Of a stretch of DNA of 64,000 bases, positions 14,097 through 63,729 are shown piece after piece (the stretch's first letter is position 1; each line of letters opens with the position of its first letter). The position numbers were made by a program, and so were the translations under genes. The stretch spans positions 186,001 to 250,000 of the forward strand of contig JAIXUC010000025.1 in the NCBI GenBank assembly GCA_027483665.1, given 5' to 3'. The notes beneath the pieces are model-generated. The model saw nothing but the letters and a program-made list of their open reading frames with translations, made no database searches and was not told the DNA's origin. This stretch comes from Comamonadaceae bacterium (GTDB lineage: Bacteria > Pseudomonadota > Gammaproteobacteria > Burkholderiales > Burkholderiaceae_C).

Positions 14097-14295
14097 GAAA
14101 AATCCTGGGCTGCGGTCGGAGGTCGCTACACCCATGAGGGTGCCGGTCGCGGTAAAACTGTGTACACGCTTTGCTTAGTTTAGGTGTCGCAAGCCCTCAT
14201 GCCGAGATTTTGAATGATTGCCCCCTACCCATTGGCTGCTGGGCCGAGCCCAACTGACCTCCAGTAACCCCCACCCGAGAGCCACCGCCCGTTCA

Positions 14296-14916
14296 ATGAC
14301 AGCAGCCCAATCCGACCAACACACCCAGCGAGCAGCCCCACGCTCGCCCGGCGACCTTTTCGTATCGTTCACTTGGTTAGCCTTGCAGGGCTTCGGGGGG
14401 GTACTGGCCGTCGTGCAAAGGGAGCTGGTTGAGAAAAAGCAGTGGCTCACGCGGGAGGAATTCATCGAGGATTGGGCCGTCGCCCAAATCTTGCCAGGTC
14501 CCAACGTTGTCAACTTGGCCCTCATGATCGGGAGTCGGCACTTCGGCTTGAAGGGTGGCCTTGCTGCCTTGGCCGGCATGCTGTGCGTGCCCACACTGGT
14601 CGTTGTTGCTTTGGCGGTGGGATATGCCAATGTGCAAAGCCATCCAGCTGCCGTTGGCGCACTGCGCGGTATGGGCGCCGTGGCCGGCGGGTTGATCCTC
14701 GCCACGGCTCTGCGACTGCTCCCCTCTCTTGTCAGCAGCCCCATGAGCCGTTCAGCCTGTTGGTTGATTGGCGGCACGACGCTGCTGGCCGTGGCCTGGC
14801 TGCGATGGCCATTGGCTGCTGTGTTGGCCGCCGTGGGCTCGGTCGCCTGGGCTTGGGCTTGGCACTGCTTGGCGCCAAAAAACGTGTCGCGTGACCCCAA
14901 CGGGGGGACGCATTGA
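14296..14916 (+). CDS. chrA: chromate transporter, N-terminal-half type (CHR family)
   Basis: The 206-residue membrane protein carries the CHR-family signatures LQGFGGVLAVVQREL and QILPGPNVVNLALMIG, and has several hydrophobic helices. CHR proteins export chromate, probably by exchange or proton coupling. Classical ChrA is one chain with two homologous halves. Here the halves are separate genes overlapping by 4 bases (ATGA), as in two-gene short-chain systems. ATG 14296 is chosen over the longer frame from 14218 because it begins just before the conserved GDLFVSF region. Confidence 0.85.
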   Translation: MTAAQSDQHTQRAAPRSPGDLFVSFTWLALQGFGGVLAVVQRELVEKKQWLTREEFIEDWAVAQILPGPNVVNLALMIGSRHFGLKGGLAALAGMLCVPTLVVVALAVGYANVQSHPAAVGALRGMGAVAGGLILATALRLLPSLVSSPMSRSACWLIGGTTLLAVAWLRWPLAAVLAAVGSVAWAWAWHCLAPKNVSRDPNGGTH

Positions 14917-15515
14917 TGATCGCAGTGACCATGGGTGGTTTGGACTGGTGGGCCCTGTTCTTTCACTTCTTCTTGTTGTCTTTGCTGGCGGTGGGTGGGG
15001 CCATCACTACAGCGCCCGATATGCATCGCTATCTGGTGAACAACCAAAGCTGGCTGACCGACGCGCAGTTCAGTTCATCCATCGCTTTGGCCCAGGCTGC
15101 CCCCGGGCCTAATGTCTTGTTCGTTGCCTTGATGGGATGGAACGTGGGCCTCAACGCCGGGGGCGGCTTGCAGGCTGGGTGGACTGGCTGGGCCACGGCC
15201 GCCCTGGGACTGCTGCTGGCCATGTTGGGCACTCTCATCCCATCTTCCACCCTCACCTACTTTGCCACCCGGTGGGCGCACCATCACCGGGAACTGCGAG
15301 CCGTGCGTGCTTTCAAAGCAGGCATGGCACCCTTGGTGGTCGCCCTTCTGGCGGCTACTTCCTGGCTACTCACACAAGCCACAGACCCGGATCTGAATCG
15401 CCCGATGGTGTGGGTACTGGCCGTAGCGACAGCCTGGGTTGTATGGAAAACCAAAGTTCACATGTTGTGGCTGCTGGCGGCCGGTGCGGTGGTCGGCGCT
15501 TTAGGCTGGGTCTAG
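14913..15515 (+). CDS. chrA: chromate transporter, second half type (CHR family)
   Basis: This 200-residue partner has the matching signatures FFLLSLLAVGGAITTAPDM and ALAQAAPGPNVLFVALMGW, plus about five or six membrane helices. Its start overlaps the stop of the first half (ATGA), so the two subunits are probably made in equal amounts and form one transporter. The second half of CHR proteins has the opposite predicted membrane topology. No chrB-type regulator is next to it. Confidence 0.85.
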   Translation: MMIAVTMGGLDWWALFFHFFLLSLLAVGGAITTAPDMHRYLVNNQSWLTDAQFSSSIALAQAAPGPNVLFVALMGWNVGLNAGGGLQAGWTGWATAALGLLLAMLGTLIPSSTLTYFATRWAHHHRELRAVRAFKAGMAPLVVALLAATSWLLTQATDPDLNRPMVWVLAVATAWVVWKTKVHMLWLLAAGAVVGALGWV

Positions 15516-15530
15516 GCACCCGCGCGACGC

Positions 15531-16268
15531 TCAAGCTTGGCGCTGCCGCAACGCCTCGTACAAACACACCCCGCTGGCCACGGACACATTCAAACTTTCA
15601 ACTGCACCCTGCATGGGAATCTTGACCAACTGGTCGCAACTCTTTCGCGTGAGCTGGCGCATACCGGTGCCCTCTGCGCCCAGTACCAAGGCCGTTGGCA
15701 CGGACAAATCGGCTTGATACAAGGAGATTGGTGCGTCTTCGCTGGTACCTACGCACCAAATCAGGCGCTCCTTCAGCTCGGCCAGCGTCCTGGACAGGTT
15801 GGTCACCATGAAATAAGGCACGGTCTCTGCCGCACCGCTGGCCACTTTGGCCACCGTCGCGTTGATTCCGGCGGCGTGGTCCTTGGGCGCGATCACCGCG
15901 TGTGCGCCGGCACCGTCAGCCACGCGCAAACAAGCGCCTAGGTTGTGCGGGTCGGTCACGCCGTCGAGCACCAGCAGCAGCGCTGGCGACTGGAGGGCAT
16001 CCAGCAAGTCGTCAAGTGAGTGGGCGGTGTCCAGCGCCTCGACGCGGGCGGCAACACCTTGGTGGCCGTGGCTGCCACATAACTTGGACAGCCGGGGCCC
16101 GTCAGCTTCGACCAATCGGACACCGGCTTCCTTGGCCCGCTCAGTGAACTGGCGCATGCGGGCGTCACGTCTGGAAGGGTCCAAGTAGACCTCCAGTACC
16201 GAAGTGGGCGCTGTTTTCAGGCGCACGCCCACAGCATGGAATCCGAACAAAACTTTGGCTGCAGACAT
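15531..16268 (-). CDS. rlmB: 23S rRNA (guanosine-2251-2'-O)-methyltransferase RlmB
   Basis: RlmB methylates the ribose of G2251 in the ribosomal P-site loop using SAM. The 245-residue protein has an N-terminal substrate-binding domain beginning VLFGFHAVGVRLK and a SPOUT methyltransferase domain with LDGVTDPHNLGACLR, ALVLGAEGTGMRQL and the knot motif ESLNVSVASGV. Length and motifs match the family closely. It is convergent with the chromate transporter genes. Confidence 0.95.
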   Translation of the reverse strand: MSAAKVLFGFHAVGVRLKTAPTSVLEVYLDPSRRDARMRQFTERAKEAGVRLVEADGPRLSKLCGSHGHQGVAARVEALDTAHSLDDLLDALQSPALLLVLDGVTDPHNLGACLRVADGAGAHAVIAPKDHAAGINATVAKVASGAAETVPYFMVTNLSRTLAELKERLIWCVGTSEDAPISLYQADLSVPTALVLGAEGTGMRQLTRKSCDQLVKIPMQGAVESLNVSVASGVCLYEALRQRQA

Positions 16269-50917: not shown

Positions 50918-51886
50918 TCAGCGCTCTTTGATGTAAGGCTTACCCAAGGCCTTGGGAGCGACAGCCTTGCCGATGAAACCAGCCAGTAGCACCACGGTCA
51001 GCACGTAAGGCAGCGCCTGAATAACCTGTACCGGAACCTCGCCAATCACTGGCAAAACGACGCCCTGCAACCGAATGGCCACCGCGTCCAGAAAGCCGAA
51101 TAGCAGGCAAGCCCACAAGGCGGGCACCGGTTTCCAGCGCCCGAAAATCAACGCAGCCAAGGCCATGAAGCCCCGACCTGCCGTCATGTTGTTGGAAAAG
51201 CCTGCGCTTTGCGCCAGAACCAGATACGCCCCGGCCAGCCCGCACAGCGCGCCATTCAGCGTGAGCGCCAGATAGCGCAGCCTGGTCACAGAAACACCCG
51301 CTGCGTCGACCATGTGCGGGTTCTCACCGACGGCGCGCAGGCGCAGGCCAAAGCGGGTGCGGTAGACCAAAAACCAAACCGCTGGAACCATCAGCAGCGC
51401 CACATAAACCATGGCGTTGTGCGAGAGCAAACCTTCGCCCAACAAAGGGCCAACCCAAGGAATGCCGGCCAAGGCGGCTGCGGCGCCTGGCCACAGCGCC
51501 TGCAAGCGAACGTCTGAGCCCAATGGCGGTGTTTGGCCGCCTTGGGCAAACCACGCAATGCCCAAGACCATGGTCATGCCCACGGCCACGATGTTGATGG
51601 CCACACCCGACACCACCTGGTCGCCCGGGTGACTGACACAGGCCAGGCCATGAAGCCAAGACAAAGCCACGGCCACGGCCATGGCGGCCATGAGCGCCAA
51701 AGCAGTGGAGCCCATGGCAGCCCCGGCAGCACCAGCGGCAAAAGCACCGAACAACATCTTGCCTTCCAGGCCGATGTCGACCACGCCCGATCGTTCGGCC
51801 AGCAAGCCAGCCAAAGCACACAGGATCAGCGGCGTGGAAACGCGCAAAGTCGAGGCCAGCATGGCGGCCAGCAGCGTGTCATCCAT
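50918..51886 (-). CDS. nucleoside-type ABC transporter permease (NupQ/YufQ-like)
   Basis: The 322-residue protein has eight or more membrane helices. RSGVVDIGLEGKMLFGAFAAGAAG near residue 30 and GENPHMVDAAGVSVTRLR near 190 are the signatures of BPD_transp_2 permeases that work with BMP-family binding proteins. It overlaps the partner permease stop by 8 bases. It is the last gene of the importer part of the nucleoside island. Confidence 0.9.
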   Translation of the reverse strand: MDDTLLAAMLASTLRVSTPLILCALAGLLAERSGVVDIGLEGKMLFGAFAAGAAGAAMGSTALALMAAMAVAVALSWLHGLACVSHPGDQVVSGVAINIVAVGMTMVLGIAWFAQGGQTPPLGSDVRLQALWPGAAAALAGIPWVGPLLGEGLLSHNAMVYVALLMVPAVWFLVYRTRFGLRLRAVGENPHMVDAAGVSVTRLRYLALTLNGALCGLAGAYLVLAQSAGFSNNMTAGRGFMALAALIFGRWKPVPALWACLLFGFLDAVAIRLQGVVLPVIGEVPVQVIQALPYVLTVVLLAGFIGKAVAPKALGKPYIKER

Positions 51887-52988
51887 GGCTCGGCCTTCGA
51901 TTGAAAAGAATCAGAGCGCGTGCCAGCCAAGGCGCAATGACGTAGGTCATGGCGCCCGAGAACAACACAATGAAGCCTTGCAGCATCACCACCATGTCGC
52001 GGCTGAAGCCTTGCACCTGAAACGCCACTTCAGCACCACCCTGAAACAAGGCACCGAACAACAAGCTGGCCAACACCACGCCCACTGGGTGGTTGCGCCC
52101 CATCAGCGCCACGGCAATGCCTGTGAAGCCCGCACCGCTGACAAACTCGAGCAGCAGCTTGCGGTTCACCCCAGCAATTTCATTCATACCGACCATGCCG
52201 GCCAGGGCACCAGAAATGGCCATGGCCAGCAAGATCTGCCGCCTGGGGTCGATGCCTGCATAGGCTGCGGCACTGGGACTGGAGCCCACGGCTCGCAGCC
52301 GATAGCCCGCGCGGGTGTGCCACAGGAACAAATAAACGCCCACAGCCGCCAAGACCGCCAGCAACACGCTCAAGTTCAGCGGCGAACGCGGCCACTGCAC
52401 ATCGAACCAGGCCATGGCCTCGCGCATGTTGGGCAAGTGGCCTGCTGCGGCGATGGGCACGCTCTCCACCGACATCACGCCGTCAGGCCGCAGGTGGTTG
52501 ACCATGAGGTAGACCAACAGACTGCTGGCGATGAAATTGAACATGATGGTGGTGATCACCACATGGCTGCCGCGCCACGCTTGTAGATAACCCGGAACCA
52601 TGGCCCAGGCCATGCCGAACGCGGCACCGGCCAGCAGCATGAGCGGCAACACCACCCAGACCGGCAAGGTCGCCCCCAGCCACAACCCCACCAAGCCCGT
52701 GCCCAAGCCACCCAACACCGCCTGGCCTTCGCCACCGATGTTGAACAAACCACCGTGGAAGGCCACGGCAACGGCCAGGCCGGTGAAGGTGAAGGTGGTG
52801 GCGTAGTAGAGCGTGTAGCTGATGCCACGCGCAGAGCCGAAGGCCCCATCGACCAGCACAGAGATGACGCGCACCGGGTCTTGCCCCACCAGCGCCACCA
52901 CCACACCGGCAGCGAGCAGCGAAATGAGCAGGCACACCGCTGGCAGCAGCGTGAGGTCGGCCCAACGCGGAAGTTTGGCGGTCTTCAT
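51879..52988 (-). CDS. nucleoside-type ABC transporter permease (NupP/YufP-like)
   Basis: The 369-residue permease has GGLFNIGGEGQAVLGGLG near residue 75 and AVGSSPSAAAYAGIDPRRQ near 235, typical of the first permease in BMP-type importers. About nine membrane helices are visible. Its ATG overlaps the ATPase gene's stop by 4 bases. It forms the pore with the next gene. Confidence 0.9.
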   Translation of the reverse strand: MKTAKLPRWADLTLLPAVCLLISLLAAGVVVALVGQDPVRVISVLVDGAFGSARGISYTLYYATTFTFTGLAVAVAFHGGLFNIGGEGQAVLGGLGTGLVGLWLGATLPVWVVLPLMLLAGAAFGMAWAMVPGYLQAWRGSHVVITTIMFNFIASSLLVYLMVNHLRPDGVMSVESVPIAAAGHLPNMREAMAWFDVQWPRSPLNLSVLLAVLAAVGVYLFLWHTRAGYRLRAVGSSPSAAAYAGIDPRRQILLAMAISGALAGMVGMNEIAGVNRKLLLEFVSGAGFTGIAVALMGRNHPVGVVLASLLFGALFQGGAEVAFQVQGFSRDMVVMLQGFIVLFSGAMTYVIAPWLARALILFNRRPSHG

Positions 52989-54613
52989 GGCGCGGGCTGC
53001 GCCTCCACCGCTTCGCTCACCGTTTGTTCCACCATTTGTTCCGCCGTTTGTTCCACCGCCTGGCCGGTCATCAAGAGGCCCAGCTTGGCTTCAGAACACT
53101 GCTCGATCGGCAGTTCCCCGGTGATTCGGCCCTGGCACATCACGACCACACGGTCGGCCAGCGCCAGGATTTCGTCGAGCTCGCTGGACACGACGAGCAA
53201 CGCGCAGCCCGCGTCGCGCAGCTGGCGCAACTGGGCGTAGATGAACTCGATGGCGCCGATGTCCACGCCGCGCGTGGGCTGGCCGACCAGCAGCACCTTG
53301 GGAGATTGGCCCAGCTCGCGCGCCAGCACCAGCTTTTGTTGGTTGCCGCCAGAAAAGCTCGCGCTCTTGAGGTCGCAGTTGCGAGGTCGCACGTCGAATT
53401 GCTCCATCAGCCGGGCAGTGTCACCACGCATGCGCTGGTGGCGCATCCAACCGCCTCGGCTGTAAGCCGGCAGCGCTTCGTAACCCAACACCGAAGACTC
53501 CCAGGCCATGAACTCCATCACCATCGCCCTGGCTTGGCGGTCTTCAGGCACATGGGCCAGCCCCAAATGGCGCGCCTGCTCGGGGTCGAGCCAGTGCGCG
53601 GGCTGGAAGGTTTGACCAAGCAAAGTCAGGCTGCCCGACTGGGGCGCGCGCAACCCGCACAGCACCTCTAACAGCTCGCTTTGGCCATTGCCCGATACGC
53701 CCGCCACGCCCACGATTTCGCCGGCGCGCAGCTGCAACGCCACGTCTTGCAAACGCGCCACACCCCACTCGTCGCGCCAAGCTAGGCCTTCTGCCTGCAG
53801 CAACACCTCGCCCGCCGAGCGACCGCCGTCGACCCGACCCATCTGCACCTTGCGCCCGACCATGGCTTCGGCCAGAGCCTCGACCGAGGTGTCGGCAATC
53901 AGGGTTTCGTGCACCACGCGGCCGCCGCGCATGACCGTTACGGCGTCGCATAAACCCATCACTTCCTTGAGCTTGTGCGTGATGAGCACGATGGTGGTGC
54001 CCTGGCTGCGCAGCAGCCGCAGCACGCCGAACAGTTGCTCGGTTTCCTGGGGTGTCAGCACCGCCGTAGGCTCATCCAGAATAAGAATGCGCGCACCCCG
54101 ATACAGCGCCTTCAAAATTTCCAGCCGCTGGCGGTCGCCCACCGGCAAATCGGACACCACGGTGTCCAGCGCCACGCGCAGGCCAGTGCTGTCCATCAGG
54201 TGCTCGAGCTCCACTCGCACTTGCTGCTCTGCGCGGCCCAGCCACAAACCGGGTTCTGCGCCCAGCATCACGTTGTCTAGCGCGCTCAGGCTGTCGACGA
54301 GCATGAAATGCTGGTGGACCATGCCAATGCCATAGGTAATAGCGTCGTGGGCGTTGTGGATGCGGGCGGGCTGTCCAAACACCGCCACTTCTCCGCTGTC
54401 GGCGCTGTAGAAACCATAGAGCACCGACATCAGCGTGCTCTTGCCAGCGCCGTTCTCACCCACGATGCCATGCACAGTTCCAGCGCGAATGTCCAAGCTG
54501 ACGTCGTCGTTGGCCAGTACCGCACCAAAGCGCTTGCTGATATGCCGCACCGACACCGCCACGCCCTGTGCGGGCAGAGCGGCTGGGGTTGTCGTCAATG
54601 TTGGCGTAGACAC
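52985..54613 (-). CDS. nucleoside-type ABC transporter ATPase, double domain (NupO/YufO-like)
   Basis: The 542-residue protein has two ATPase domains as in sugar/nucleoside importers. The first has Walker A GENGAGKSTLMS, LPVGDRQRLEILKAL in place of LSGGQ, and ILDEPTAVLTPQE. The second has the degenerate loop GVSGNGQSELLEVL, FSGGNQQKLVLARE and a LLVGQPTRGVDIG Walker B. The start is GTG 54613 without a clear ribosome site. The C-terminus ends in three 4-residue repeats from a 12-base repeat in the DNA. An intrinsic terminator separates it from the binding-protein gene upstream. Confidence 0.92.
   Translation of the reverse strand: MSTPTLTTTPAALPAQGVAVSVRHISKRFGAVLANDDVSLDIRAGTVHGIVGENGAGKSTLMSVLYGFYSADSGEVAVFGQPARIHNAHDAITYGIGMVHQHFMLVDSLSALDNVMLGAEPGLWLGRAEQQVRVELEHLMDSTGLRVALDTVVSDLPVGDRQRLEILKALYRGARILILDEPTAVLTPQETEQLFGVLRLLRSQGTTIVLITHKLKEVMGLCDAVTVMRGGRVVHETLIADTSVEALAEAMVGRKVQMGRVDGGRSAGEVLLQAEGLAWRDEWGVARLQDVALQLRAGEIVGVAGVSGNGQSELLEVLCGLRAPQSGSLTLLGQTFQPAHWLDPEQARHLGLAHVPEDRQARAMVMEFMAWESSVLGYEALPAYSRGGWMRHQRMRGDTARLMEQFDVRPRNCDLKSASFSGGNQQKLVLARELGQSPKVLLVGQPTRGVDIGAIEFIYAQLRQLRDAGCALLVVSSELDEILALADRVVVMCQGRITGELPIEQCSEAKLGLLMTGQAVEQTAEQMVEQTVSEAVEAQPAP
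53022..53057 (-). repeat. three 12-base tandem repeats in the ATPase C-terminus
   Basis: The unit GTTTGTTCCACC (plus strand) occurs at 53022-53033 and 53046-53057, with ATTTGTTCCGCC between. On the coding strand it yields VEQT-AEQM-VEQT. Such in-frame short repeats can expand or contract without breaking the frame. Confidence 0.85.
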
Positions 54614-54698: not shown

Positions 54699-55730
54699 TC
54701 AGAACTTGCAGGCGTTGCCGGCCATGTAGTCCACCACCTTGATCTTGCCGGAAATGATGTCGGCCTTGGCAGCTTCGACCTTGGTCTTCATTTCTTCGGT
54801 GACCAGCTTGGCGTTGTTGTCGTCCACGGCGTAGTCCACACCGCCTTCAGCCAAGCCCAGCACCGTCACGCCCGGCTTGTGTTCTTTGGCCACGTTGTAC
54901 ACGGCCACGTCCACGCGCTTGAGCATCGAGGTCAGCATGGTGCCGGGGTGCAGGTGGTTCTGGTTGCTGTCCACACCAATGGCCAGCTTGCCGCCGTCCT
55001 TGGCTGCTTGGTAGACACCCATGCCTGTGCCGCCAGCGGCTGCAAAGACCACGTCTGCACCCTTGGAGAACTGGGCCTTGGCCAACTCACCGCCGCGGGC
55101 TGGGTCGTTCCAGGCTGCACCGGTGGTGCCGGTCATGTTGGCCAGCAACTGGGCCTTGGGGTTGACGAACTTGGCACCTTGCTCGTAGCCGCACTGGAAG
55201 CGGCGAATCAGCGGAATGTCCATGCCGCCCACAAAGCCGACCTTCCCGGTCTTGCTGGCCATGGCGGCCATGGCGCCCACCAAGAAGCTGCCTTCTTGTT
55301 CCTTGAAGACCACCGACTGGACGTTGGGCAACTCAACCACCATGTCGATGATGGCGAACTTCAGGTTGGGGAATTCTTTGGCGACTTTTTCGATGCTGGA
55401 AGCTTGACCAAAACCGATGCCGATGATGGGGCTGGCGCCTTGTTCTGCCATGCGGCGGATGGCCTGCTCGCGCTGGGACTCGTTAGTGACTTCGAATTCG
55501 AGGTAGGTCTTGCCGGTTTCCTTCTTCCACTTTTCGATGCCGGTGTAGGCAGCCTCGTTGAAGGACTTGTCGAACTTACCGCCCATGTCAAAGATGACCG
55601 CGGGCGATGGGCCTGCAGCCACGACCGGGGCCGGTGCTGGTGCCGGCGCGGCAGCAGCTGGCTCTTCTTTTTTGCCGCAGGCAACAAGGGTGAATGCGAC
55701 GGTCATGGCCGCCATCAGCTTCATGTTCAT
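54699..55730 (-). CDS. BMP-family nucleoside-binding lipoprotein (BmpA/PnrA-like)
   Basis: The 343-residue protein has a lipoprotein leader with lipobox TLVAC, then a Lys/Glu then Ala/Pro-rich linker, then a type 1 binding domain with AVIFDMGGKFDKSFNEAAYTG. This matches the BMP/PnrA family whose members bind purine or pyrimidine nucleosides. In-frame ATG 55724 is an equally good start. It feeds the ATPase and two permeases downstream, and lies just below the phyH-psuG-psuK genes, which supports nucleosides as ligand. Confidence 0.9.
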   Translation of the reverse strand: MNMKLMAAMTVAFTLVACGKKEEPAAAAPAPAPAPVVAAGPSPAVIFDMGGKFDKSFNEAAYTGIEKWKKETGKTYLEFEVTNESQREQAIRRMAEQGASPIIGIGFGQASSIEKVAKEFPNLKFAIIDMVVELPNVQSVVFKEQEGSFLVGAMAAMASKTGKVGFVGGMDIPLIRRFQCGYEQGAKFVNPKAQLLANMTGTTGAAWNDPARGGELAKAQFSKGADVVFAAAGGTGMGVYQAAKDGGKLAIGVDSNQNHLHPGTMLTSMLKRVDVAVYNVAKEHKPGVTVLGLAEGGVDYAVDDNNAKLVTEEMKTKVEAAKADIISGKIKVVDYMAGNACKF

Positions 55731-55784: not shown

Positions 55785-56711
55785 TCAACCGCGGGTGGCG
55801 GATTCTAGGTCGATAAAACCCGAAAAAGGTGCGTTTTGCGGGCCATCGCGCTGTATCCAGTTGTCCTTTGCATAAGTCGTGCCCGCGCTGACCGCGTGCA
55901 AGGTGTAGGCGTGGCGCGATTGCGCCAAGCGGTTGGCCAGTGACAGGTGTGGAAAGAGGCCGTGGAACACGATGAGGCTGCCGCGCGGCACCGCCAGCCA
56001 CTGCAAGCGCTGCATATCCCATTCGGGCCGTGGGTGAATGGGGTGCAGCCGCAGAACCCCGTCCGGGTCGCGCCGAAACAGCTCTTTGAGGCCCTTGGCG
56101 TGTTCTCCCGGCAGGCCGCCGAGGCAACCGTTGCCTTGGTGCGCGTCTTCGATGGCCAACCAGAACCCGACCACCGACTGTGGCTGAGTCGACAAAAAGG
56201 TGGCGTCTTGGTGGCAGTTCACCTCGCCACCGATGCCGGGCTGTTTGAAGATGTACATCGACTGCACCAGCAAGGGGTCGGCCAAGCCCACACCCTCGGC
56301 CACCGCTTGCCAGCGCGGGCCGTGCGAGTGGCGCTGAAACACCGGGTCCAGGTCGTGCATGGCGTGGCCCAGCTTGTTCACGGCACGCGACAACGGCACC
56401 TTTAACTGACCTTGCGCGTCCAGCGCCTCCTCCTCAAAAAACACGCCCATGCCCGCGGCGGTGGATTCGAAGTAAGCGTCGCGCGCGTGGCGCTGGTCAC
56501 GCGTTGAAAAAACCGTTGCAGGTGACTGCGGGGCCAGCACCTCCACCAGACGCTCGGCTTGGGCGCGCAGCTCGGCACAAGCCTGCGCATCGAGGAAGTC
56601 TTCGACGATCAAAACGCCGTCTTGCTGATAAGCGGCCTGGGCCTCGGTGTCCAAGCCCCAACGCAGGGCGTTGTTGCTGCGGCGCAGATGGGTCCGGTGC
56701 ACTGGCTTCAT
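55785..56711 (-). CDS. phytanoyl-CoA-dioxygenase-type Fe(II)/2-oxoglutarate oxygenase (PhyH family)
   Basis: The 308-residue protein has the PhyH-type opening AYQQDGVLIVEDFLDAQACAEL, the metal HxD pair in VNCHQDATFLS near residue 180, and a distal His in FHGLFPHLS followed by SRHAYTLH for 2-oxoglutarate binding. It should therefore be an active Fe(II) oxygenase. PhyH relatives hydroxylate very diverse small molecules, so the name does not reveal the substrate. Its ATG overlaps the psuG stop by 4 bases (ATGA), tying it to pseudouridine breakdown. The bmpA-type gene starts 54 bases downstream. Confidence 0.85.
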   Translation of the reverse strand: MKPVHRTHLRRSNNALRWGLDTEAQAAYQQDGVLIVEDFLDAQACAELRAQAERLVEVLAPQSPATVFSTRDQRHARDAYFESTAAGMGVFFEEEALDAQGQLKVPLSRAVNKLGHAMHDLDPVFQRHSHGPRWQAVAEGVGLADPLLVQSMYIFKQPGIGGEVNCHQDATFLSTQPQSVVGFWLAIEDAHQGNGCLGGLPGEHAKGLKELFRRDPDGVLRLHPIHPRPEWDMQRLQWLAVPRGSLIVFHGLFPHLSLANRLAQSRHAYTLHAVSAGTTYAKDNWIQRDGPQNAPFSGFIDLESATRG

Positions 56712-57679
56712 GGCTGCGCTCCACCGGCCGCGGCTGGCCCCACCGCGCAGAACCGGGAAAAGCAAACCGCCACCTGGGCCGCCACATGGGCGTTGTGGCG
56801 CACCAAGGCCACGTTGCTGCTGAGGCTATGCCCGCCCGTCAGGGCGTTGACACGGGCCAGCAAAAACGGGGTGGCGGCTTTACCAACGATGCCCTGCGCC
56901 TGTGCCTCGGCCAGCGCTTGCGCCACCGCAGCATCGATGGCTGCCTGGGGCATGGCCTGTGCCGCGGGAATGGGGTTGGCCAAAACGATGCCGCCCATCC
57001 GCAGGGCCGACAAGCCCGGTGCCCACTGCATGGTCATCACTCGGGCTACCTGCTCTGGCGTGTCCATGCGCGCATCGACGACGAGGCCGCTGTCTCGCGT
57101 GAAAAAGGCAGGGAACCGATCGGTCTGGTAGCCCAGCACGGGCACGCCTTGGGTTTCGAGGTACTCCAGAGTCAGCGGCAAATCCAAGATGGACTTGGCA
57201 CCGGCGCACACCACCAGCACCGGCGTGCGGGCCAGCTCTTGCAGGTCGGCGGAAATGTCGAAGCTTTGCGGCGCACCCCGGTGGACACCGCCAATGCCGC
57301 CCGTGGCAAACACCCGAATGCCCGCTAACGCGGCCAGCATCATGGTGGCGGCCACGGTCGTCGCCCCCGTCGCACCGCTGGCCAGCACCCGCGCCAGATC
57401 GCGGCGACTCACCTTCACCACCGCTTGCCCTTCAAGGCCCAAGCGTTCCACCTGCTCGTCGCTCAGGCCGACCTTCAAACGTCCATCCATCAAGGCCATG
57501 GTGGCTGGCACCGCACCCGCCGCGCGCACATCGGCCTGCACAGCTTGCGCGGTTTGCACGTTCTGCGGATACGGCATGCCGTGAGAAATGATGGTGGACT
57601 CCAAGGCCACCACCGGGCGACCGGCGGCCAGCGCCTGCGCCACGTCTTCTTGCACATCGATCAGGTTTTCCAGGCTCAT
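56708..57679 (-). CDS. psuG: pseudouridine-5'-phosphate glycosidase
   Basis: PsuG splits the C-C bond of pseudouridine 5'-phosphate to uracil and ribose 5-phosphate. The 323-residue protein has VVALESTIISHGMPYPQN near residue 25, SRRDLARVLASGATGATTVAATM near 95, ATGGIGGVHRGA near 125 and LDLPLTLEYLETQGVPVLGYQT, all highly conserved in PsuG. ATG 57679 matches the known start of the family; the longer frame has no support. It follows psuK by 107 bases and overlaps the PhyH gene. Confidence 0.95.
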   Translation of the reverse strand: MSLENLIDVQEDVAQALAAGRPVVALESTIISHGMPYPQNVQTAQAVQADVRAAGAVPATMALMDGRLKVGLSDEQVERLGLEGQAVVKVSRRDLARVLASGATGATTVAATMMLAALAGIRVFATGGIGGVHRGAPQSFDISADLQELARTPVLVVCAGAKSILDLPLTLEYLETQGVPVLGYQTDRFPAFFTRDSGLVVDARMDTPEQVARVMTMQWAPGLSALRMGGIVLANPIPAAQAMPQAAIDAAVAQALAEAQAQGIVGKAATPFLLARVNALTGGHSLSSNVALVRHNAHVAAQVAVCFSRFCAVGPAAAGGAQP

Positions 57680-57786: not shown

Positions 57787-58809
57787 TTATTCCACGACGG
57801 TATGGGGCGCTTGACGAAGCAATTCCTCCACAGCTTGCACGGACAGGTCGGGGTTGTTGGCAGCCGTGTCTTGCAAGGTGAGTGCTGCGCAGGCCATGCC
57901 CCAGGCCAGCGCCCGCTCCAGCGGCCAGCCCTGGGCCAAGCCCCAAACCAAGCCTGCCATGAGCGCGTCGCCAGCGCCGGTTGTGCTTTTGATGGGCACG
58001 GCCAGCGCCGGGCAAAAACCCGCACTTTGGCCCGGACTGCACCACACAGCGCCAGCGCGCCCCAGGCTCAACACCACGTGCTGCACGCCAGCGGCGACCA
58101 GCGCTTGTGCTGCGGCGTGCGCGTCGGCCTGGGTTTGCAGCTTGTGCGTGGGCCAGGACAACAAGGCGCAGGCCTCGAGCCGATTCACCTTCAACAGGTG
58201 AAGGCTGCGCAGATGGGGCAACAAGCGCGTGCATTTGGCAGCCGACACCGCATCGGCCAAGACCATTTTTCCTGGGCACTGCTGGAACACCGCAGCCAAG
58301 GCAGCCGGGTTGAGGTTGGCGTCCACCAGGCACAGCTGCGCAGCTTCGAACATGGCCGAAGAGCCCAGCAAGCCCTGGGGCCCGAGTTGTTCCAGCACGG
58401 CCATGTCGTTGACCGCGTGCAGCAGTTGTCCATCGGCGCTGTGAATCGACAGGTAAGTGGCAGTGGCGTGACCTGCCAGCACCTGCACGCCTTTAACACC
58501 TACACCGACGCGGCTGCAGGCATCCAGCAACTGCTGACCATGAAGGTCGTCGCCCACGGCGCTCACCAGCTCGACAGCCATGCCCAAACGCGCCAAGTTT
58601 CCTGCGATGTTGCGCCCCACGCCCCCTGGTGCAGTGGTCACGGTGCCTGGCGTCGAGTCGCCTGGCTGGGCCGCCTGCGAGGCCACCGCCGTGATGTCCA
58701 TGTTCATGCCCCCCACAACCACCACAGCGCTTGAGCCGAGCGCCCGCATGGCCGCTTGATCAAAGGGCTTGGGGCCAGCGGGGCTGTGCTTTGGCGTGGG
58801 AAGGTTCAT
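57787..58809 (-). CDS. psuK: pseudouridine kinase, PfkB family
   Basis: PsuK phosphorylates pseudouridine at the 5' hydroxyl. The protein has VVVVGGMNMDITAVAS near the N-terminus, PGGVGRNIAGNLARLG with the sugar-binding Gly-Gly, and the catalytic STTGAGDALMAGL near residue 275. The start is unclear: ATG 58809 gives 340 residues with a variable N-terminus, ATG 58839 and 58758 are alternatives, and no ribosome site stands out. Pairing with psuG makes the pseudouridine assignment strong. It faces the ribokinase gene across a 128-base divergent region. Confidence 0.9.
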   Translation of the reverse strand: MNLPTPKHSPAGPKPFDQAAMRALGSSAVVVVGGMNMDITAVASQAAQPGDSTPGTVTTAPGGVGRNIAGNLARLGMAVELVSAVGDDLHGQQLLDACSRVGVGVKGVQVLAGHATATYLSIHSADGQLLHAVNDMAVLEQLGPQGLLGSSAMFEAAQLCLVDANLNPAALAAVFQQCPGKMVLADAVSAAKCTRLLPHLRSLHLLKVNRLEACALLSWPTHKLQTQADAHAAAQALVAAGVQHVVLSLGRAGAVWCSPGQSAGFCPALAVPIKSTTGAGDALMAGLVWGLAQGWPLERALAWGMACAALTLQDTAANNPDLSVQAVEELLRQAPHTVVE

Positions 58810-58937: not shown

Positions 58938-59864
58938 ATGATCCTTGTTGCTGGCTCTGCCAACCTCGATTTCGTCGTCCGCGCCGATCACATTCCAGCA
59001 CCGGGCGAGACCGTGCTGGGCCAAGACTTTCGGACCTTCCCTGGCGGCAAAGGTGCCAATCAAGCGGTGGCCAGCGCCCGCGCTGGCGCTGCGCCCACCC
59101 ACATGCTGCTGGCCGTTGGCGCTGACCCTTTTGCAGGCCCGCTGCTGGACTCGTTGGACCAAGCGGGCGTGGTGCGTCACACCGTGCAGTGCTCCGATCA
59201 GCCCACCGGCACGGCGTTCATCTGTGTCTCTGCCAGTGGCGAGAACGCCATCACCGTGGCCCCGGGTGCCAACACCGCTTTGCGGCCAGAACACCTGCCA
59301 CCGCTGCAAGGTGCACACGCGCTGCTCATGCAGTTGGAGACGCCCTTGCCCACGGTGCTCGCTTTTGCGCAGGCGGCACGAGCAACCGGCGTTCGGGTCT
59401 TGCTCAACGCAGCACCCGCACCCCAAGACGGCCTGCCAGAGGCGCTGCTGGCAGCGATCGACGTGCTGGTGGTCAACGAAGGCGAGTTGAGCGCGATCGC
59501 CGGCCCTGGCAGCGTGGCCGAGCAACTGGCGCGCTTGGCGGTGCCTTGTGTGGTGGTCACCCTCGGTTCACAGGGCTGCCTGGCGCAGCTTCGCCAGACG
59601 CAGGGCGAGCCAACCGACCCACCACAACTGCTGCAACAAGCCGGGTTTGCCGTGGACGTTTTGGACACCACGGCGGCTGGCGACACCTTTTGCGGTGTGT
59701 TGGCGGCCAGCCTGCCATCCCACGGCCCGCTGCATCCAGAGCCCCTGTCACAAGCCCTGCGCAGAGCCTGTGCTGCCGCCGCCTTGGCCTGCACCCGCGC
59801 TGGTGCGCAGACCAGCATTCCCAGTGCCGCAGAAATCAACCAATTCCTCACACTCAACCCCTGA
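58938..59864 (+). CDS. rbsK: ribokinase, PfkB family
   Basis: Ribokinase makes ribose 5-phosphate. The 308-residue protein has ILVAGSANLDFVVRADHIPAPG at the start, TFPGGKGANQAVASARAG near residue 37 and the catalytic DTTAAGDTFCGVLAA near 248, all in the ribokinase pattern. It heads the plus-strand arm of the nucleoside island, followed 16 bases later by a nucleoside hydrolase whose ribose product it would phosphorylate. Confidence 0.92.
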   Translation: MILVAGSANLDFVVRADHIPAPGETVLGQDFRTFPGGKGANQAVASARAGAAPTHMLLAVGADPFAGPLLDSLDQAGVVRHTVQCSDQPTGTAFICVSASGENAITVAPGANTALRPEHLPPLQGAHALLMQLETPLPTVLAFAQAARATGVRVLLNAAPAPQDGLPEALLAAIDVLVVNEGELSAIAGPGSVAEQLARLAVPCVVVTLGSQGCLAQLRQTQGEPTDPPQLLQQAGFAVDVLDTTAAGDTFCGVLAASLPSHGPLHPEPLSQALRRACAAAALACTRAGAQTSIPSAAEINQFLTLNP

Positions 59865-59880: not shown

Positions 59881-60912
59881 ATGACCTCCGCCAGCACCCA
59901 GAACCGCCAGTCCACCCAGCCGCGCAAAGTCATTTATGACACCGATCCCGGCGTAGACGACGCCATGGCCCTGTACTTCGCCCTGGCGCACCCCGGCATC
60001 GAGCTGGTGGGCATCACCACCACCTTTGGCAACGTGACGGTCGAGCAAGCCACGGTCAATGCGCTCTACCTCACGCAGCTCTCTGGGCACGACATCCCGG
60101 TCACGTGCGGCGTGGCCAAGCCTTGGGCCATGCCCGGCAAGCCGCCGCCGACCTTCATTCACGGCGATGACGGCTTGGGCAACCTAGGCCAGCGCCAGCC
60201 GGCCAAGCGGCAACGTGACCCGCGCAGCTCGGCCCAGTTCATCGTGGACATGGCCCGTGCCCACCCCGGCGAGATCACGCTGGTGCCTGTGGGGCCGCTG
60301 GGTAACTTGGCACTGGCCCTGAAGCTGGAGCCGGAACTGCCCAAGCTCATCCGTGAAGTGGTGCTCATGGGCGGCACGGTGATCGAGCCGGGCAATGTCT
60401 CGCCGGTGGCAGAAGCCAACATCTGGAACGACCCCCACGCCGCTGATTTGGTGTTCACCGCTGGCTGGCCGCTGACCATGGTGGGGCTGGACGTGACGCA
60501 CCAGCTCATCTTGCCCGGTGCTTTGTTTGACGACATCGCAGCGCACCACCGCCACCCCGCCACCGATGCGCTGCGCCACGCCGTGGCTTTCTATGCCGAC
60601 TTCTACAGCAACCTATACGCCCACGTGGGTGCCGTGCGCGGCTGCTACGGCCACGACGTGCTGGCTTTCATTCGGCTGGTCGCGCCCGAGCTGTTCACCA
60701 CGCTGAACGGTCGCATCCGCGTCACCACCGACGGCATCGGCCAAGGCCAAACCATGATGCACCGCCGTGGCGACATGTTCTTCGTGCAACCCGGTTGGGG
60801 CGATGACTGCCCGGTCTCCACGGCCTGCCTGACTGTGGACGCTGAAGCCGCCAAAGCCTTGTTTCTGAACACGCTGATGTCGCCGTGGTTGCCCGCAGCA
60901 CCGAAACACTGA
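59881..60912 (+). CDS. inosine-uridine-preferring nucleoside hydrolase
   Basis: The 343-residue enzyme cleaves the N-glycosidic bond of ribonucleosides to base and ribose. The metal-binding signature YDTDPGVDDAMAL is near residue 19, HGDDGLGN near 98 and the EANIWNDPHAADLV segment with metal and ribose contacts near 180. The pyrimidine/purine preference (RihA, RihB or RihC type) cannot be read safely. It lies between ribokinase and an IPNS-type dioxygenase on the same strand. Confidence 0.93.
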   Translation: MTSASTQNRQSTQPRKVIYDTDPGVDDAMALYFALAHPGIELVGITTTFGNVTVEQATVNALYLTQLSGHDIPVTCGVAKPWAMPGKPPPTFIHGDDGLGNLGQRQPAKRQRDPRSSAQFIVDMARAHPGEITLVPVGPLGNLALALKLEPELPKLIREVVLMGGTVIEPGNVSPVAEANIWNDPHAADLVFTAGWPLTMVGLDVTHQLILPGALFDDIAAHHRHPATDALRHAVAFYADFYSNLYAHVGAVRGCYGHDVLAFIRLVAPELFTTLNGRIRVTTDGIGQGQTMMHRRGDMFFVQPGWGDDCPVSTACLTVDAEAAKALFLNTLMSPWLPAAPKH

Positions 60913-60925
60913 GCCCGCTCTAGCC

Positions 60926-61768
60926 ATGCAACTGCCCATCGTCGACTACCGCAGCCCGGACGCCCCGCGTCAGTTCTGCCAATCGCTGCACGACACCGGC
61001 TTTGGTGTACTGGCCCACCACCCGCTGGATGCGCAGTTGGTGCACGGCATCTACGCGGAATGGCTGGCTTTTTTCAACTCATCCGCCAAGCAGCAGTACC
61101 CCTTTGACAAAGAGCGGCTCGACGGCCACTTCTCCACCGACGTGTCGGAGACGGCCAAAGGCCACGAGGTGCGTGACTTCAAGGAGTTCTTCCACATCTA
61201 CAGCTGGGGGCGTTACCCCACCGAGGTGAGCGACGCGGCCCAGCGCTACTTTGCCCAAGGCCACGCCTTGGCCTCGGAGCTGCTGCGCTGGGTCGAAGAA
61301 GCCTCACCGCCCGAGGTGCGCCAGCGCTACAGCATGCCGCTGCCGCACATGATCGAAGGCGGCGACCAAACCTTGCTGCGCGTGCTGCACTACCCGCCGC
61401 TCACCGGCGCTGAGCAGCCGGGCTCCATCCGTGCGGCTGCGCACGGCGACATCAACCTGCTCACGTTGCTACCCGCAGCCACCGAGCCGGGCCTGCAGAT
61501 CTTCGGGCAAGACGGGCAGTGGCACGACGTCCCCTGCGACTTCGGCCTGCTCATCGTCAACATCGGCGACATGCTGGAAGAAGCTTCTGGCGGCTACTAC
61601 CCGTCCACCGTGCACCGCGTACTCAACCCCACAGGCGATGCCCGCCACAAGCCGCGCGTCTCATTGCCGCTGTTCCTGCACCCCCGCCGCGAAGTGGTGC
61701 TGTCCGAGCGCCACACCGTGGGCAGCTACTTCGAAGAGCGCATGCGGGAGCTGCGGCGCAACGGCTGA
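60926..61768 (+). CDS. isopenicillin-N-synthase-type Fe(II)/2-oxoglutarate dioxygenase
   Basis: The 280-residue protein has the DIOX_N-like opening LPIVDYRSPDAPRQFCQSL with DTGFGVLAHH. The core has the metal pair in AAAHGDINLLTLLPA near residue 172, a distal His in YPSTVHRVLNP near 225 and the 2-oxoglutarate-binding RxS in KPRVSLPLF. Residues for catalysis are all present. The superfamily includes fungal thymine-7-hydroxylase, which oxidises the methyl group of free thymine. Its position 13 bases after a nucleoside hydrolase makes a nucleobase substrate plausible. Substrate not proven. Confidence 0.87.
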   Translation: MQLPIVDYRSPDAPRQFCQSLHDTGFGVLAHHPLDAQLVHGIYAEWLAFFNSSAKQQYPFDKERLDGHFSTDVSETAKGHEVRDFKEFFHIYSWGRYPTEVSDAAQRYFAQGHALASELLRWVEEASPPEVRQRYSMPLPHMIEGGDQTLLRVLHYPPLTGAEQPGSIRAAAHGDINLLTLLPAATEPGLQIFGQDGQWHDVPCDFGLLIVNIGDMLEEASGGYYPSTVHRVLNPTGDARHKPRVSLPLFLHPRREVVLSERHTVGSYFEERMRELRRNG

Positions 61769-61845: not shown

Positions 61846-63729
61846 ATGTATGCCTACACCGAGTTCGATCGCGCCTTCATCAGGGCGCGCGCCGCGCAGT
61901 ACCGCGAGCAGTTGCAGCGTCATCTGTCCGGCGATCTTCCAGACGACCTGTTTCGCCCGCTGCGCTTGCAGAACGGCTGGTACGTGCAGCGCTATGCGCC
62001 CATGCTGCGCGTGGCCGTGCCTTACGGCGAGTTGTCCAGCCGCCAGTTGCGCACGCTGGCCCGTGTGGCGCGCGAGTTCGATGTGCCTGAGGAATCGGTT
62101 TATCAACACGCCGTTCAAACCCAAGCGCGCCTGGGCAGCGGCCCGCTGCCGCGCCAATGCGCGCACTTCACCACGCGCCAGAACCTGCAGTTCAACTGGA
62201 TTCCCCTGCACCGCAGCGCCGACGTGATGGAACTGCTGGCCAGCGTGGACATGCACGGCATCCAGACCAGCGGCAACTGCATCCGCAACATCACCAGCGA
62301 CGCACTGGCTGGCATTGCGCCAGACGAGGTGGCAGACCCGAGGCCTTTCTGCGAAATCCTGCGCCAATGGAGCACGGTGCACCCCGAGTTCGCCTACCTG
62401 CCGCGCAAGTTCAAGGTGGCGGTCACGGGTGCGCGCGAAGACCGCGCCGCCATCGGCTGGCACGACGTCGGTCTGCAATTGGTGCGCGCCACAGCCCAGC
62501 AGGCGGCCGATGCGCCAGCGTTCGAGCAGGTGACAGAAGGCGACTTGGGCTTTCGCGTGCTGGTGGGCGGCGGCATGGGCCGCACGCCAGTGATCGCGAG
62601 TGAGCTGCGCGCCTTTCTGCCTTGGAATCAGGTGCTCAACCACCTCGAAGCCATCGTGCGCGTCTACAACCGCTGGGGCAGGCGCGACAACATGTACAAG
62701 GCGCGCATCAAGATCTTGGTGAAGGCCGAGGGCGAGCGCTTTCGCGAAGAGGTGGCCGTCGAGTACCAGCGCGTGGTGCAAGAAGACGGCGGGCCGCACA
62801 CCATCAGCCAAGCTGAGTTGGACCGCGTGGGTGCTTCGTTTGCTGACCCGGCCTTGTCGCAGCCTCAGGCCGATCGGCCCGATGAGCAGCAAGGCGCACC
62901 CGAGGGCGAGGCCGCTGCCTTTGCCCGCTGGCAGCAGCGCAACGTCTTGGCGCACCGCAACCCGGAACTGCGCGCGGTCACCTTGTCGTTCAAGCGCCTG
63001 GGCCACGCGCCGGGTGACGCCACGGCAGACCAGCTCGACGCAGCAGCCGACCTGGCTGAGCGCTTCAGCGCTGGCGAAGCGCGTGTGACGCACGAGCAAA
63101 ACCTGGTGCTGCCCTGGGTCCACCAGTCAGACCTTATTTCTCTTTGGCAAGCGGCCCGCGCTCTCGGCCTGGCCCAGCCCACCATCGGCCTGCTGACCGA
63201 CGTCATCGCCTGCCCTGGCGGCGATTTCTGCTCGCTGGCCAACGCCCGCTCCATCCCTGTAGCTGATGCCATCTTGCAGCGCTACCAAGACTTGGACGAA
63301 CTCGACGACCTGGGATTGATCGACCTGCACATCAGCGGTTGCATCAACTCCTGCGGGCACCACCACAGCGGCCACATCGGCGTTCTGGGCGTGGATAAAG
63401 ACGGGCAGGAGTGGTACCAAATCACCTTGGGCGGCTCTGATGGCACGCACCTGTCGGGTGCGGCCACGCCGGGCAAAGTGATCGGCCCATCGTTTGCTGC
63501 TGCAGAAGTGGTGGATGTGGTCGAAGCCCTGTTGCAGACCTACCGGCGGCTGCGCGTGCCGGCCACCACCAACGATCCCAACGTTGGACCCAAGGTGGGG
63601 CCCACCTCCTTTGAGACCTTCGTCGACACCGTGCGCCGCGTCGGCCTGCCGCCCTTCCGCGAAGCCGCCGACGGCGTTCGCGTGCTCACCGCGCGAACCA
63701 CCACGACCACCGACGAAGCCGCGGCTTGA
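61846..63729 (+). CDS. cysI: sulfite reductase hemoprotein subunit (siroheme/4Fe-4S)
   Basis: The enzyme reduces sulfite to sulfide with six electrons. The 627-residue protein has two repeats of the nitrite/sulfite reductase ferredoxin-like half domain. The first siroheme-binding domain holds PRQCAHFTTRQNLQFNW near 105 and SGNCIRNITSD near 145. The 4Fe-4S/siroheme cysteines appear in ACPGGDFCSLA (Cx5C) and SGCINSCGHHHSGHIG (Cx3C) near 455-510. It resembles the bacterial single-subunit CysI of Burkholderiales that is followed by a DUF934 gene, as here. The siroheme partner chelatase candidate is at 33.6 kb. Confidence 0.93.
   Translation: MYAYTEFDRAFIRARAAQYREQLQRHLSGDLPDDLFRPLRLQNGWYVQRYAPMLRVAVPYGELSSRQLRTLARVAREFDVPEESVYQHAVQTQARLGSGPLPRQCAHFTTRQNLQFNWIPLHRSADVMELLASVDMHGIQTSGNCIRNITSDALAGIAPDEVADPRPFCEILRQWSTVHPEFAYLPRKFKVAVTGAREDRAAIGWHDVGLQLVRATAQQAADAPAFEQVTEGDLGFRVLVGGGMGRTPVIASELRAFLPWNQVLNHLEAIVRVYNRWGRRDNMYKARIKILVKAEGERFREEVAVEYQRVVQEDGGPHTISQAELDRVGASFADPALSQPQADRPDEQQGAPEGEAAAFARWQQRNVLAHRNPELRAVTLSFKRLGHAPGDATADQLDAAADLAERFSAGEARVTHEQNLVLPWVHQSDLISLWQAARALGLAQPTIGLLTDVIACPGGDFCSLANARSIPVADAILQRYQDLDELDDLGLIDLHISGCINSCGHHHSGHIGVLGVDKDGQEWYQITLGGSDGTHLSGAATPGKVIGPSFAAAEVVDVVEALLQTYRRLRVPATTNDPNVGPKVGPTSFETFVDTVRRVGLPPFREAADGVRVLTARTTTTTDEAAA

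Follow-up and report, generated by a model that had tools for sequence, protein, structure and literature searches.

An oxygenase encoded directly after a nucleoside hydrolase is a candidate bacterial deoxynucleoside 2′-hydroxylase

What does a 2-oxoglutarate-dependent oxygenase do when its gene directly follows that of a nucleoside hydrolase? The question is raised by a 64,000-nucleotide stretch of a Comamonadaceae genome (contig JAIXUC010000025.1, positions 186,001 to 250,000), called the window below, in which two groups of genes diverge. The plus-strand group holds a ribokinase-like PfkB sugar kinase (RbsK, 58938..59864), a nucleoside hydrolase of 343 aa (59881..60912) and an isopenicillin N synthase (IPNS)-type 2OG-Fe(II) oxygenase of 280 aa (60926..61768); 16 bases separate the first two genes and 13 bases the last two. 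The minus-strand group runs from 58725 down to 50918 and encodes a pseudouridine-kinase-like PfkB kinase (PsuK, 57787..58725, start uncertain), the pseudouridine-5′-phosphate glycosidase PsuG of the Indigoidine_A family (56708..57679), a second 2OG oxygenase, of the PhyH family and PHYHD1-like (55785..56711, overlapping PsuG by 4 bases), and a nucleoside-type ABC importer consisting of a BMP-family substrate-binding lipoprotein (54699..55730), an ATPase (52985..54613) and two permeases (51879..52988 and 50918..51886). A gene downstream of the oxygenase that reads as sulfite reductase (61846-63729) is part of another pathway. The hydrolase matches PF01156 at 290.8 bits (cut-off 34.2) and is the single PF01156 match in the 2.9-Mb draft genome; four NCBIfam equivalogs matched it, none at its own cut-off. 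Two more PF03171 oxygenases are found elsewhere in the genome.

The first-pass annotation of this locus had noted the 13-base spacing and the intact HxD...H and RxS residues of the oxygenase, and both are borne out: the hydrolase stop lies at 60912 and the oxygenase ATG at 60926, and H173, D175, H230, R244 and S246 are all present. It had further proposed that the oxygenase acts like fungal thymine-7-hydroxylase (T7H) on thymine that the hydrolase releases from the 5-methyluridine of tRNA, converting it toward uracil. We suggest a different step. The best-supported reading, to which we give a probability of roughly 40%, is that the enzyme is an Fe(II)/2-oxoglutarate-dependent deoxyribonucleoside 2′-hydroxylase. 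What is observed is the order and the families of the genes, an intact metal site and 2OG site, the conservation of the module, and two absences, that of deo genes within reach of the contigs and that of deoC from most of the linked genomes checked; we infer the substrate, the position that is hydroxylated and the direction in which the pathway runs. PF01156-family hydrolases split ribonucleosides and generally require the 2′-hydroxyl. In the proposed route, the importer would take up nucleosides from degraded nucleic acid, the oxygenase would use O2 and 2-oxoglutarate to turn a deoxyribonucleoside into a ribonucleoside by adding the 2′-hydroxyl, the hydrolase would split the product into free base and ribose, and the ribokinase would convert the ribose to ribose 5-phosphate. 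The sugar of DNA could in this way be used without thymidine phosphorylase, purine nucleoside phosphorylase or deoxyribose-phosphate aldolase.

By family, the oxygenase is a clear IPNS-type enzyme (PF03171 at 63.0 bits, PF14226 just at its cut-off) with the iron triad, the RxS motif and the double-stranded beta-helix, and the best listed fold matches of its AlphaFold2 model (pLDDT 87.5) are of the same type. The closest solved relative is 3on7 (released in 2010, titled putative oxygenase), which is SO_2589 of Shewanella oneidensis and an orthologue (E 1.3e-110 over 276 residues; fold Z 36.8 and 56% identity against the model). A literature search for SO_2589 did not find a function, and at the Shewanella locus that was examined the hydrolase is not beside the oxygenase, unlike in the window. 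The nearest solved fold of known substrate is T7H from Neurospora (5c3q; Z 29.5, rmsd 2.3 Å, 263 residues aligned), but SpoC comes next at Z 28.4, and several unrelated activities are only about 1 to 3 Z units away from T7H. Because other activities are so close in Z, we do not use this rank as evidence on the substrate. In sequence comparison, T7H is slightly outscored by an ancestral ethylene-forming enzyme (9ovh).

The roles of the metal, 2OG and substrate residues of T7H are taken from PMC4787775. The oxygenase residues H173, D175, H230, R244 and S246 align with T7H H214, D216, H271, R286 and S288, and the two enzymes also have R152, Y156 and F250 in common. Two of the six T7H substrate residues, R190 and F292, have counterparts in R152 and F250, and both of these also occur in 3oox and 9ovh. 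In place of N87, Y217 and N294 the oxygenase has L65, I176 and H252, and E122 stands opposite a gap in the MAFFT alignment; hand placement on the common K-E motif gives H90 at this position. I176, H252 and D175 do not vary among 135 distinct relatives, and H90 occurs in 134, so the pocket is conserved, yet it is not that of T7H. With two of six substrate residues kept, we reject membership of the oxygenase in T7H. The fungal enzyme shares the IPNS-type fold, the metal and 2OG residues, R190 and F292 with the window oxygenase, and differs from it in that three of its six substrate residues are replaced here and one is without a partner, and in the bacterial operon context here.

The oxygenase belongs to a conserved, uncharacterized module, whose extent was studied in a comparison set of 143 loci with 135 distinct oxygenase sequences (a few loci are the same contig twice). 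A locus is called linked when no more than 400 bases separate a hydrolase from the oxygenase, which is the case for 57 of the 143 (55 distinct oxygenases). In all 57 the hydrolase is directly upstream on the same strand, with a median gap of 14 bases and a gap of 60 bases or less in 51, and this adjoining of a hydrolase gene is genomic context consistent with hydrolysis of a ribonucleoside as the following step. Three further loci are linked to a NupC-type transporter, and 83 have neither neighbor, counting one that is ended by a contig end. The linked loci are betaproteobacterial in 52 cases (Comamonadaceae, Oxalobacteraceae and kin, together with further genomes from the order of the window), and the other five belong to one family, f95, which shares the phylum of the window without being listed under its class and which we call alphaproteobacterial since the DNA of one locus matches, weakly, 11 plasmid records from alphaproteobacterial genera only. 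In a scan of named genomes, 44 of the best 80 of 537 loci were linked and 36 were not. At E 1e-40 the oxygenase has matches in 24 of 300 genomes from the order and, in further searches with an alignment of 15 relatives at E 1e-60, in 32 of 398 genomes of the phylum, 22 of 150 genomes of the family of the window (f1) and 5 of 149 genomes of f95.

Module composition was counted in the 50 of the 55 distinct linked loci that have usable gene calls, leaving out the other five. Beside the hydrolase and the oxygenase (50 each), these encode a PfkB kinase in 45, a BMP protein in 33, an ABC ATPase in 32 and, more rarely, cytidine deaminase and PsuG (8 each); the end product of the module is a sugar phosphate. 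Some high-GC loci (e.g. L050, L089, L093, L098, L192, L215 and L217) have gene calls on the wrong strand, and for these tblastn to known proteins was used instead. Linked loci of beta and of alpha type fall into separate clades of the oxygenase tree, and in the hydrolase tree they likewise form two distinct clades on an unresolved backbone; a single ancient origin of the pair is possible. The number of linked loci, the common strand, the short gaps and the two separate clades argue that the pairing is beyond chance. As Comamonadaceae, Undibacterium and f95 each arrange the surrounding importer genes in an order of their own, we suggest that selection acts on the pair itself. A literature search found nothing that joins a nucleoside hydrolase with an IPNS-type oxygenase.

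A third context is found in seven gammaproteobacterial genomes of one family (f53), in which a NupC-type transporter gene takes the place of the hydrolase directly upstream of the oxygenase on the same strand. These comprise the three NupC-linked loci of the 143, in two of which the transporter is confirmed by Pfam, and short loci from the phylum search. The three NupC-linked genomes that were checked (G314, G550 and G615) are without deoC and PYNP_C and have a kinase-hydrolase pair elsewhere in the genome.

The remaining contexts could be taken to mean that the enzyme is a housekeeping oxygenase with some other substrate, whose proximity to nucleoside genes reflects co-regulation only. The unlinked loci, 83 of 143, are what such an explanation has in its favor, and some of them stand beside rng, metG, sucCD or mnmA (gene names by reading of the sequence). 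Within 9.5 kb or up to the contig end, none of the 83 has a hydrolase, BMP, Cdd, DeoA, DeoC, PNP or NupC gene; an ATPase was matched three times and a sulfite reductase once, and the neighbors of the unlinked copies have no consistent theme. The unlinked orthologues are mostly 50-66% identical to the window oxygenase. Plasmid copies occur in 13 records, and the two that were inspected are both unlinked and give no functional hint. We nevertheless hold the housekeeping explanation to be unlikely, as it has to account for three nucleoside contexts (hydrolase in beta, hydrolase in alpha, and NupC) and for the tight coupling to the hydrolase.

The substrate may differ between linked and unlinked enzymes. 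Position 65 corresponds in the alignment to the T7H residue that contacts O2 of the base. Of the unlinked proteins, 75 of 77 have Q here, as do all three NupC-linked ones; the 50 linked beta proteins differ among themselves (H, M, L, G, Y and others), and the five linked alpha proteins have Q, Q, S, P and V. A relaxed base contact at this position would be in keeping with an enzyme that accepts several nucleosides. If it reflects a difference in substrate, on the other hand, the same variation may count against 2′-hydroxylation, for which any deoxyribose contact in the pocket is hypothetical.

A pointer to deoxynucleosides is what the linked loci and genomes lack. DeoC, PNP and DeoA, searched with one query per gene, were found in none of the 57 linked loci within 9.5 kb or up to the contig end; both flanks reach at least 5 kb in 30 of the 57 and at least 9 kb in 15. 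The same queries do find deo genes in importer clusters without the oxygenase, and the protein families of these matches were verified. Two such clusters (L236 and L237) have hydrolase, Cdd, PNP, DeoC and DeoA, a third (L238) has hydrolase, Cdd, DeoC and DeoA, and a fourth (L216) has Cdd, PNP, DeoC and DeoA with no hydrolase match, while in L214, whose genome (G876) carries the oxygenase elsewhere, the importer cluster has hydrolase, PNP and DeoC. Four of these (L214, L236, L237 and L238) resemble the window in combining importer and hydrolase, with a ribokinase in three of the four, and differ from it in having DeoC throughout, PNP in L214, L236 and L237, DeoA and Cdd in L236, L237 and L238, and no oxygenase. 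As the deo genes are absent from linked clusters within reach of the contigs and present in these, the oxygenase seems to replace the deo enzymes in the linked clusters. A deoxynucleoside 2′-hydroxylase would make this possible, since ribonucleoside and ribose would be handled by the hydrolase and the ribokinase.

On the genome level, deoC was scored by TIGR00126, and in f1 and f95 the genome sets were matched between the oxygenase, deoC and hydrolase searches by genome handle; some genomes are incomplete (G850, for example, at 74%). Of 13 linked genomes checked, 11 are without deoC. In f95, where deoC is above the cut-off in 136 of 149 genomes, it is missing from four of the five oxygenase carriers versus 9 of 144 non-carriers (Fisher p 1.7e-4, kinship ignored). 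The 150 f1 genomes include 37 with deoC, 43 with the hydrolase and 22 with the oxygenase; none of the six linked ones (G000, G849, G850, G873, G915 and G918) has deoC versus 23 of the 37 other hydrolase-bearing genomes (Fisher p 0.006, kinship ignored), and deoC occurs in 8 of the 22 hydrolase-bearing genomes without the oxygenase. Hydroxylation of deoxynucleosides gives a direct reason for the absence of deoC from linked genomes, whereas a T7H activity gives none.

Several observations speak against a 2′-hydroxylase. Two linked genomes, G209 and G677, do have deoC, G677 being the sole f95 carrier (n=5) with it. Without conditioning on the hydrolase, and with kinship ignored, deoC is not rarer in linked than in oxygenase-free f1 genomes (p 0.59). 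All 16 of the other f1 oxygenase carriers have deoC, compared with 21 of 128 oxygenase-free genomes, and in none of the 11 inspected for context is a hydrolase beside the oxygenase; this co-occurrence probably represents one clade. In a mixed set, deoC is found in 22 of 33 genomes with unlinked orthologues. As deoC is present in such unlinked carriers, 2′-hydroxylation looks redundant there, unless the substrate or role differs. Finally, five genomes of another family (f22; G279, G249, G068, G219 and G188) have the oxygenase and neither hydrolase nor deoC.

Could the module serve thymine after all? Oxidation of the methyl group on thymine or 5-methyluridine, as by T7H, would agree with the nearest fold of known substrate and with the two kept residues, and PYNP_C phosphorylase, a possible source of thymine, is present in many genomes with unlinked orthologues. 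Hydrolase and PYNP_C were examined in 60 oxygenase carriers, and a PYNP_C match is missing in 11 of the 13 linked genomes (the two matches are in G209 and, weakly, in G850), so that there is probably little thymine in them. DeoA is absent from all 143 loci within 9.5 kb or up to the contig end. In the 50 linked loci with usable gene calls, no decarboxylase, pyrimidine-ring, pyrimidine-catabolic or other base-degrading family recurs in the module within 9.5 kb, the 5-carboxyuracil decarboxylase family included. 5-Methyluridine from tRNA would also be a minor substrate for so tightly coupled a gene. Taken with the replaced residues N87, Y217 and N294 and with E122 being without an aligned partner, this makes the T7H activity an improbable one. 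The link to nucleoside metabolism made in the first-pass annotation does hold; it had the pathway partly right but probably the step wrong.

The step that precedes T7H in the same fungal pathway is 2′-hydroxylation, which by analogy would be the better fit. The fungal pyrimidine-deoxynucleoside 2′-hydroxylase, which we take to be EC 1.14.11.3, would carry out the same reaction with the same next step as proposed here. According to PMC4787775, the fungal hydroxylase converts thymidine to the ribonucleoside of thymine, which is then hydrolyzed. Our searches did not find a gene or sequence for the fungal enzyme, and the likeness is by reaction alone.

A second precedent is found within the superfamily, where nucleotide C2′ halogenases lack the Asp iron ligand. 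The window oxygenase has this ligand (D175), and we reject it as a member of this group. AdaV belongs to the same superfamily as the oxygenase (E 3.5e-9), the halogenase structure 7w5s matches the model at a Foldseek E of 8.6e-18, and the F272/H274 spacing of CtNTH equals that of F250/H252, a likeness by position alone and not by alignment. PMC11186838 describes such halogenases as acting at C2′ of deoxynucleotides and, in a side reaction, hydroxylating dGMP to GMP. AdaV and CtNTH halogenate nucleotides, while we propose that the oxygenase here hydroxylates nucleosides.

Two other activities would leave much of this route in place. If the oxygenase acted after the hydrolase and converted free 2-deoxyribose to ribose for the kinase, the sum of the pathway and the fit to the missing deoC would be equal. 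This would require efficient cleavage of deoxynucleosides by the hydrolase, an unusual property in PF01156, and a T7H-like pocket with the conserved aromatic F250 suits a base or nucleoside, for which reasons we regard it as very unlikely. Somewhat less improbable, though still doubtful, is a demethylase of modified ribonucleosides from RNA turnover (2′-O-methyl, N-methyl or 5-methyl), restoring a form that the hydrolase accepts. The logic of the module would be unchanged, the enzyme would be useful also in genomes that have deoC, and PsuG lies near 9 of the 52 beta linked loci, so that modified RNA nucleosides are handled beside several of them. However, a demethylase leaves without reason both the absence of deoC from most linked carriers and the absence of deo genes from linked clusters when other importer clusters have them.

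We therefore favor, tentatively, the deoxynucleoside 2′-hydroxylase. Slightly less probable than the activity itself is the broader proposal that it forms an oxidative bacterial route for DNA sugars, replacing phosphorylases and aldolase and brought together with nucleoside genes in at least two lineages. Deoxynucleoside 2′-hydroxylation is so far known from fungi. If the bacterial route is real, bacteria would have a deoxynucleoside pathway that avoids the textbook deo route and amounts, at the level of nucleosides, to a reversal of ribonucleotide reduction; a widespread oxygenase family, for whose solved structure 3on7 no function was found, would gain one; and the fungal activity for which our searches found no gene would gain candidate sequences. 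Even with another substrate, the conserved module makes the question testable.

We point out some further features of these loci. The PhyH oxygenase of the window (55785-56711, minus strand) adjoins the BMP gene and is nearest to PHYHD1 (2opw, E 9.6e-57). It is found beside one of the 57 linked loci, that of the window, and might act on modified pseudouridine; a literature search found nothing connecting PHYHD1 with pseudouridine. The importer cluster of G876 (L214) with its BMP, PNP and DeoC genes contains an apparent ribokinase-hydrolase fusion of 650 aa (13780-15732). Among the unlinked orthologues, two from one family (L046 and L047, f42) directly follow nudix-like and mnmA-like (tRNA thiouridylase) genes and precede tol-like genes. 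Judged from sequence, one orthologue (L176, G527) stands beside sucCD, and another (L084) faces a 2-oxoglutarate dehydrogenase gene. In L178 (G572) the oxygenase is highly diverged (31% identity, on a very long branch) while its SulP and GTPase neighbors are kept, which suggests a relaxed or altered function.
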